A stretch of 64,000 nt of DNA from Halobellus sp. LT62 (GTDB lineage Archaea > Halobacteriota > Halobacteria > Halobacteriales > Haloferacaceae). The translations under genes and the position numbers were made by a program. Where the stretch lies: NCBI RefSeq assembly GCF_037031285.1, contig NZ_JAYEZO010000001.1:992001-1056000 (forward strand). The letters run 5' to 3'. Shown in pieces: positions 54,447 to 56,057 of this stretch. The notes below the pieces were generated by a model, which saw only the letters and a list, made by a program, of their open reading frames with translations, did no database searches and was not told the DNA's origin. Position 1 is the stretch's first letter, and each line of letters begins with the position of its first letter.

Positions 54447-55473
54447 TTTAATTGAATACTACTCTTAGAGAACTAGAGGATGAGCACTCTCGCAGAGGCG
54501 GAGATCAAAGGTTGCTATGAAGGTAACCAAGGAATGACTTGATCGTGTATGGGCTGTATAAGCAAGATCAATCTTCTTCCTTAACTCTCTGCCAACACAG
54601 AACAGGTTGATTAGATCTATCGTCATTCCCTATCTGTTAGTCCCATCACCGGACCTCCAACTTCTTCATCGATAGTTCATCCTCACCTTCTTTACCTCCC
54701 CAACCGACAGAATTCTCCTCCGTGATATGGAGTTGCTTGGCTGCCTCTTTTGGATCGTAAGTCGACAGAGGACCTATTCAAAACATAATTAATGGTCGAA
54801 ATATAAAATTAAAATTATAGATGTATATAATGTATTTACTATAAAATATAAAAATATATCTCCGGTTATAGTGCTTAATTACGTTATTTACGGCTTCTTA
54901 CGTAGCTATTATTGTTATCAGAAATAATATATAACACGTATATTTTAATATTCTAGTATGTTGGCGAATATATCCAACACCATCTCTTGGCCTCCGAATA
55001 GCTCCGATAAAACCGCTTCTTCAGATACAATTCTGGATGAACCAGCCGGTCACTCAATTACCTGTATGAGCGATTACCCACAGAAAGTTGTCTCAGACTT
55101 TATGGAAGATTCGCGCTGTCTAATCAGCACGCTGGCTGCAACCTGTTGCTGATAGAGGGTTACAACAAATCCGCTATAGAGTAGAAACAGATCCTTCCGA
55201 ATCCCGTCGAGCAATTTTCAGCGTCTAACATAACCGGAATCGAGGGAATCGGGAGTATTTCACTATTAGAAGTGCTGAGCTGGAAACCTCCAAGGACTCA
55301 GAACAGGTGAAGTAGCAACCCGAAAAAATCAGATATGCCCGATATCACGCTCGTTACCCCGCCGTCGAGCAAATTTTGAATCTCAGAGTCATCCCCGAAC
55401 TCGTCGAGGTACTTTCTAGGCTCTCAAATCGGCCCGACGGGGTTCTTCCGCGATTTGAGGTCGCTATTTCGTC
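54447..55473. other. 1-kb AT-rich region, no supported gene
   Basis: GC falls to its lowest here, with poly-A/T runs at 54780-54960. On the minus strand at 54647-54768 a broken frame reads YDPKEAAKQLHITEEN and ends KKLEVR, perhaps the tail of a lost gene. The 64-codon frame at 54958 has no haloarchaeal character. It marks the right edge of the AT-richer catabolic module. Confidence 0.55.
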
Positions 55474-55516
55474 TTGCATATCGCGAATTTCGTCCAAAGA
55501 AAGAGGCGATATGCAA
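55474..55516. repeat. perfect 11-bp inverted repeat
   Basis: TTGCATATCGC (55474-55484) and GCGATATGCAA (55506-55516) are exact reverse complements 21 bp apart. It could be a hairpin, an operator or a replication-type site, 108 bp upstream of the three-way-junction candidate. Confidence 0.55.
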
Positions 55517-55623
55517 TGTGCGAAGGCCGCTGGCTCTCTCAGGCCGAGGGGCCATTACAGAGGTAATGGACTCAAGAAAATATCAGATTTATCGCATAGA
55601 GAAAACGGGTGCATATCGGTGGT

Positions 55624-55675
55624 GTCTATCGCCCCCGCGAGGGGTGACGGGGCGCATCACGTGCCCCCGATAGAC
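55624..55675 (+). ncRNA. 52-nt three-way-junction RNA candidate
   Basis: The DNA folds on paper into a compact junction. The closing stem is GTCTATCG (55624-55631) with CGATAGAC (55668-55675). Inside, CCCC-GCGA-GGGG (55633-55644) is a hairpin with a GNRA tetraloop, and GGGGCGC (55649-55655) pairs with GTGCCCC (55661-55667, one wobble) around ATCAC. Only C55632 and TGAC (55645-55648) are left unpaired at the junction. It ends one base before the ATG at 55677, so it may be a 5' UTR control element, or a free small RNA. The opposite strand could fold similarly, losing the GNRA loop. Confidence 0.45.
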
Positions 55676-55676
55676 G

Positions 55677-56057
55677 ATGGCTTCGGAACGACGCAGCGAA
55701 ACACGAGCAGCGCATCAAGCGGCAAGTACCCCTGACGGTCAGGCGCCGTGGGCAGACCTCGAGGTGGTGGTCCCGACCGACCGGGATCACGCGTCGGTCG
55801 TCGCCCGCCAGGTCGGGCGGTCGACGCGGACGCAGTACGTCGCGGCCGACGACGTCGGCGAGCAGTTCCAAAAACGGCACTTCGACGACCGGCTGGGCTG
55901 GAACGAGACCAGCGTCCCTCGACGAACCGTTCGCGACGACCTCATCACCCAGCTCACGCGGTCGCCCTCGACGCCGGCGGAGCGGTCAGGTGAGAGAGCA
56001 GCCAGCGAGCCAGACACCTTCGTCGTGAAGCCAGTTCGAGATCTCCAGACCCCATAG
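55677..56057 (+). CDS. hypothetical 126-aa protein
   Basis: The frame returns to GC-rich haloarchaeal codons after the AT-rich stretch. The product starts MASERRSETRAAHQAAS and has a folded-looking core (LEVVVPTDRDHASVVARQV, QYVAADDVGEQFQKRHF) and TVRDDLITQLTR. I do not recognise a family. It begins one base after the three-way-junction candidate. It may be the start of a longer gene that has been cut, as the C-terminal part (KPVRDLQTP) is short and plain. Confidence 0.45.
   Translation: MASERRSETRAAHQAASTPDGQAPWADLEVVVPTDRDHASVVARQVGRSTRTQYVAADDVGEQFQKRHFDDRLGWNETSVPRRTVRDDLITQLTRSPSTPAERSGERAASEPDTFVVKPVRDLQTP

Follow-up and report, generated by a model that had tools for sequence, protein, structure and literature searches.

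What does the compact RNA-like structure that ends one base before an ATG in Halobellus sp. LT62 do? It could be a cis-regulatory RNA of the gene behind it, a small self-contained RNA, or a DNA structure used by a mobile element. The window, i.e., the whole stretch of 64,000 nucleotides that was analysed, contains one copy of the structure, which was compared with its homologues in other haloarchaeal genomes.

The leader in the window

The structure consists of a closing stem (P1) and two hairpins (H1 and H2). Its parts are the following (R3 is a covariance model described below).

55624–55675, plus strand: AUG-proximal structured leader, window copy, a three-way junction (R3 score 69.8 bits, E = 3e-15 within the window; model E-values are rough)
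55624–55631, plus strand: 5′ arm of P1, GTCTATCG (8 bp in the window; elsewhere about 3–5 bp or absent)
55668–55675, plus strand: 3′ arm of P1, CGATAGAC, which pairs with 55624–55631
55633–55644, plus strand: hairpin H1, CCCC-GCGA-GGGG, the most sequence-conserved part of the leader
55649–55667, plus strand: hairpin H2, GGGGCGC-ATCAC-GTGCCCC, 7 bp with one G.U (sequence and length differ among gene families, pairing is kept)
55641–55647, plus strand: GGGGTGA, a Shine-Dalgarno-like stretch (cf. GGAGGUGA) with a putative role, the first four bases inside H1

The features that an earlier note had read from the letters (an 8-bp closing stem, a CCCC-GCGA-GGGG hairpin with a GNRA loop, a 7-bp stem and five unpaired bases) are all exact in the sequence. 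C55632 and TGAC at 55645–55648 stay unpaired in the junction, and the leader ends at 55675, with a single base between it and the ATG at 55677. Folded in isolation, the 52-mer adopts precisely this three-way junction as its MFE structure, at −29.7 kcal/mol and z = −3.9. When 101 nt of context are included, another MFE structure results and z is only −0.46. The statement that such economy is rare by chance was too strong: a scan for this geometry gives five matches in the window, versus a mean of 0.8 per dinucleotide-shuffled window. What speaks for the importance of the leader is comparative evidence.

The upstream repeat

The perfect 11-bp inverted repeat that had been noticed upstream is present, 107 nt from the leader. 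It lies in a separate conserved non-coding element, called module A.

55440–55556: module A, found alone on some plasmids
55474–55484: left arm of the 11-bp inverted repeat, TTGCATATCGC
55506–55516: right arm of the repeat, GCGATATGCAA
55493–55503: TCCAAAGAAAG, in the loop of the repeat (from the sequence)

Module A is 88–92% identical on plasmids which have neither the leader nor the ORF, and such plasmids (L082–L084) are as small as 41 kb. Module A, of which the 11-bp repeat is a part, is a separate unit and can occur without the leader. The arms of the repeat in other homologues are unrelated yet complementary (e.g., TGCACC/GGTGCA), and the loop between these variable arms is conserved as TCCAAAG(A/G)AAG. 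Module A may serve the plasmids as an origin of replication or of transfer. The leader (module B) accompanies an ORF. In one subgroup it has an unrelated gene in front of it, and the left arm of P1 is exactly where the homology sets in.

Two further hairpins are seen between the upstream region and the leader, at 55423–55459 (CTCAAATCG/CGATTTGAG) and at 55552–55569 (CCATTAC-AGAG-GTAATGG).

The downstream gene and its family

The ORF that follows the leader belongs to a family of plasmid proteins of 146 aa, present in 126 of 391 Halobacteria genomes.

55677–56057, plus strand: 126-aa ORF, a decayed copy of the 146-aa family, by comparison with the family
55805/55806, plus strand: junction of a 60-bp in-frame deletion which removed 20 residues of the conserved core (ALVECALVELTHEAVGAVF..), by comparison with the homologous loci L041, L042 and L009
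56067–56107: conserved inverted repeat TTAACCAACA...TGTTGGTTAA, past the stop codon of the ORF

The deletion probably arose between short direct repeats, CGTCGCCC. The 126-aa protein has no Pfam or NCBIfam match and no convincing PHROG match; its AF2 model has a mean pLDDT of 59, and Foldseek gave no PDB match at E ≤ 0.001.

The leader and the ORF occur together on dozens of haloarchaeal plasmids; on pNRC100 of H. salinarum NRC-1 the leader is at 141817–141873, in front of VNG_RS12870. A unit of about 1 kb around the leader matches 71 haloarchaeal plasmid records, pNRC100 included, mostly at 80–90% identity, and no relatives were found in the viral contigs and phage genomes searched. The same genome has a second copy of the unit at a distance of 61 kb. 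As judged by size and order, this copy follows ORFs of the primase type, as is usual on the plasmids, and its ORF is altered at the C terminus. Both copies look like relics, because of the 20-residue deletion in the window and the altered C terminus in the second copy. Since the gene downstream of it has decayed, the leader in the window may itself be a relic.

At three loci (L117–L119) a degenerate second leader and the start of a related ORF are found about 130 nt upstream of the ORF, before the intact leader and ORF, as if the leader and the gene had been replaced as one unit.

Occurrence before unrelated genes

Three models were used. R1 is a structural covariance model built from homologues of the leader, with the start codon included; R2 is a sequence-only model which serves as a comparison for R1; R3 is a generalised model of H1 and H2 only, and it also includes the ATG. 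R3 matched 207 of the 391 Halobacteria genomes, representing 64 of 86 genera; a genome often has several matches, and most matches lie on plasmids or small contigs. None of the R3 matches listed for 295 genomes of the phylum lies outside the order.

A search of 242 genomes with R1 returned the leaders of the 146-aa family and, more weakly, sequences before ArdC-like, SWIM-finger, HNH-like, DUF6166-like and small zinc-finger-like ORFs; the matches before these unrelated ORFs end exactly on the ATG. The leader does not, then, always precede the same gene. The genes downstream of leaders include the 146-aa family, DUF6166, plasmid TFB, HNH, ArdC-like, TnpB-like, SWIM-finger and DUF6735 genes, where the names of some unannotated ORFs rest on likeness to annotated relatives and known motifs and the others are record annotation. 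Judged by these sequence comparisons, the leader is an element specific to Halobacteria which many unrelated genes of plasmids and integrated elements carry directly in front of the start codon.

In 70 of the 77 loci that were followed up, the end of the match falls exactly on the ATG of an ORF (36/37 with ORFs of at least 40 aa and 34/40 with ORFs of at least 50 aa). These counts are uncorrected for relatedness and biased towards start codons, since R1 and R3 contain the ATG. As a background, 39% of all ATGs in these loci open ORFs of at least 50 aa. The leaders of TFB, TnpB-like and DUF6735 genes and of a 126-aa family were found though these were absent from the training set of R3, and several leaders outside this set coincide with annotated starts. 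A small self-contained RNA is therefore unlikely, because there is a start codon at the end of the element nearly every time.

In NZ_LN831304.1 (L295:40421) the leader places the start of a DUF6166 gene 18 nt upstream of the annotated start, which is likely misannotated. At L294:45396-47439, a toxin-antitoxin pair and an HNH gene with a leader apparently interrupt a DUF6166 gene, and a DUF6166 gene continues behind them; the same pair of leaders is found in G049:C2. This arrangement is a possible insertion of a mobile HNH unit.

Conservation of the structure

Homologues that preserve the pairing do exist. At about 50% protein identity they keep the CCCC-loop-GGGG hairpin, the second hairpin and the end just before the ATG, and the architecture is also kept before unrelated genes. 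RNAalifold on group 1/2 alone gives the three-way junction that had been reported. R1 matches most divergent loci over its full length and where expected, and it gives most of them a higher score than R2 does.

The three helices differ in how they are conserved. In close homologues 95% of the P1 cells are paired, with changes on both sides at the third and fourth pairs. In the leaders of other families (n = 52), H2 forms in 50, H1 in 46, and P1 is kept in 25. P1 thus appears to be an optional closing stem, which is unusually long in the lineage of the window. H1 and the UG that follows it are nearly fixed in sequence, and H2 is free in sequence and length, yet paired. Taken alone, the conservation of H1 could be one of sequence.

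Pair retention across families is above that of shuffles (1/500) and of slid controls. Within the close family most changes affect only one side of a pair, and the pair counts are hardly above those of shuffles. A tree-aware covariation test gave no significant pair in the close family, in group 3 or in group 4; the best covarying pair within a helix in group 3 is in H1 (GC/AT, E = 1.7). Watson-Crick pairs change to G.U more often than to A.C (35 versus 20, P = 0.03), a bias which is driven by H2 and P1, H1 showing no preference for G.U. The folding z-scores of the leaders of groups 1–4 are −3.7, −3.3, −1.9 and −1.4, compared to −0.1, −1.6, 0.05 and 0.12 for a control 60 nt upstream (uncorrected for relatedness).

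Two finer features were considered and dropped. The GNRA tetraloop is found in only 53 of 127 scorable leaders and does not define the element, and a K-turn in the junction was abandoned because its UGA is not conserved (it is mostly UGC outside the 146-aa family). Rfam release 15 gave no match at the gathering threshold and nothing meaningful at permissive thresholds.

Ordinary intergenic or relic sequence, i.e., functionless GC-rich repeats carried along with genes, would fit the fact that the geometry alone is common, the weak covariation in the close family and the decay of the window's own gene. It does not account for matches in so many genera and before unrelated gene families, for the exact position at the ATG or for an H2 that is kept despite a changed sequence, and is very improbable. 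What the sequence comparisons show is a conserved structured element which lies at the AUG in the coding strand, keeps its pairing and is common to genes of mobile elements.

RNA or DNA

Of the two strands, the coding one folds better: its z-score is −2.39 and that of the complement −1.47, and it is the better folder in 122 of 159 leaders (uncorrected for relatedness). This makes a DNA-level structure of a mobile element, as the earlier note had envisaged among other possibilities, less likely.

One form of this idea is a single-stranded DNA element: while a plasmid conjugates or replicates, the hairpins in one of its strands would be priming sites or single-strand promoters of early genes. 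Frpo and ssi elements of F-type plasmids, the single-stranded promoters of plasmid leading regions, are of this kind: they are hairpins on one strand, near ArdC-type genes. Leaders lie on a single strand in 21 of the 24 contigs with at least three matches, even over more than 150 kb, and this pattern speaks for such an element, although the annotated genes on these plasmids are themselves 69–81% co-oriented. Many carrier plasmids are typed MPF_T and encode primase genes, and an ArdC-like gene is among the targets. However, such an element does not predict the exact placement at the ATG; the strand that folds better is the coding one, whereas for a single-strand promoter the incoming strand would serve as template; and with DNA parameters the window leader folds more weakly (−15.3 kcal/mol). 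A single-stranded DNA element is thus unlikely.

An equally unlikely explanation is a DNA operator or promoter, in which the dyads are bound by a plasmid regulator, or which serves as a special promoter for plasmid TFB/TBP with transcripts starting at the AUG. H1 and H2 are indeed dyads, the plasmids encode TBP and TFB, and plasmid TFB genes carry the leader. Yet the distance from the conserved block, the SD-like GGGGUG, to the AUG varies from 22 to 48 nt, unlike a TATA-to-start spacing; an AT-rich (TATA) box at a fixed distance was sought and none was found. The arms of H2 change freely, unlike a protein-binding half site, and a dyad is strand-neutral whereas the folding is strand-biased.

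The leader shows a fixed position before the start codon in the coding orientation, and its structure is kept despite sequence changes, as expected of a cis-acting leader. We infer that it is probably a cis-acting mRNA element which controls translation initiation. Of the reading as a cis-regulatory RNA of the 126-aa gene, the cis-regulatory part is thus the best supported; the element is not confined to this gene, which is itself a truncated copy. Autoregulation of the ribosomal-protein type by the 146-aa protein was rejected, since the leader is also found before unrelated genes. A riboswitch would have a ligand-binding core and control the genes of one pathway; the targets here (TFB, ArdC-like, HNH, DUF6166, etc.) have no pathway in common.

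A possible mechanism

GGGTG is present in 127 of 150 leaders and GGGCG in 18, so the SD-like stretch is not found in all of them. The distance from GGGUG to the AUG is 30.3 ± 3.0 nt along the sequence and 9.2 ± 2.0 nt when H2 is removed; with shuffled H2 regions the mean is similar (9.4 nt) but the standard deviation is 4.6 nt. A search by pattern for the 3′ end of the 16S rRNA gave no match and was uninformative.

The core of the leader consists of two tandem hairpins, H1 (CCCC/GGGG with a short loop) and H2, which ends about 9 nt before the AUG; the short stem P1 may join them. H1 would sequester the purine-rich GGGGUG, which resembles the haloarchaeal Shine-Dalgarno sequence, while H2 would loop out as a spacer and so place GGGGUG about 9 nt away from the AUG. 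As long as H1 is closed, translation would be low; the opening of H1 would release it, and the opener could be a trans-acting protein, salt, temperature, or ribosomes coming from an upstream gene. This model, a gate in H1 and a spacer in H2, is favoured because stem-loops in haloarchaeal 5′-UTRs lower translation (PMC2636863) and because the haloarchaeal SD consensus is GGAGGUGA (PMC8241225), but in this detailed form it is rather doubtful.

With one leader in common, an element could switch many genes together. It is conceivable, if somewhat short of probable, that the tandem-hairpin leader defines an RNA regulon, a common translational switch for unrelated element genes (TFB, ArdC-like, TnpB-like, HNH). 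Transfer, or a trans-acting RNA-binding protein, might set the timing of such a switch.

Comparison with known systems

The leader seems previously undescribed: literature searches, which covered few subscription papers, found no motif of this kind. Natural cis-regulatory RNAs are few in archaea (PMC8241225, from 2021, names one experimentally established archaeal riboswitch), whereas about half of the haloarchaeal genomes sampled gave a match to the present element. As a translational switch, if it is one, it would reveal how the genes of archaeal mobile elements are coordinated, and would offer a route to haloarchaeal initiation on structured leaders without a nearby SD. It would also help to find unannotated element genes and to correct start codons, as for DUF6166 in NZ_LN831304.1.

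The attC site of integrons is a folded element repeated beside different genes on mobile DNA; the present leader, in contrast, is fixed before the ATG and does not flank genes as arrays. What the leader has in common with Frpo/ssi is hairpins that occupy a single strand of conjugative-type plasmids in the neighbourhood of ArdC-type genes, but the leader is much shorter, abuts the ATG and folds better on the coding strand.

Translational riboswitches and autoregulatory leaders of ribosomal-protein genes are likewise structured beside the initiation site, with tandem hairpins and an SD-like stretch in a stem. Unlike them, the present leader has no Rfam match, no common target pathway and no large conserved aptamer core.

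The haloarchaeal 5′-UTRs of hp (HVO_0721) and gvp also lie before the AUG, can lower translation and need no canonical SD (PMC2636863, PMC8241225), and the hp leader has a stem-loop too. These are leaders of single genes, however, whereas the present element is common to unrelated families and has a fixed place at the AUG.
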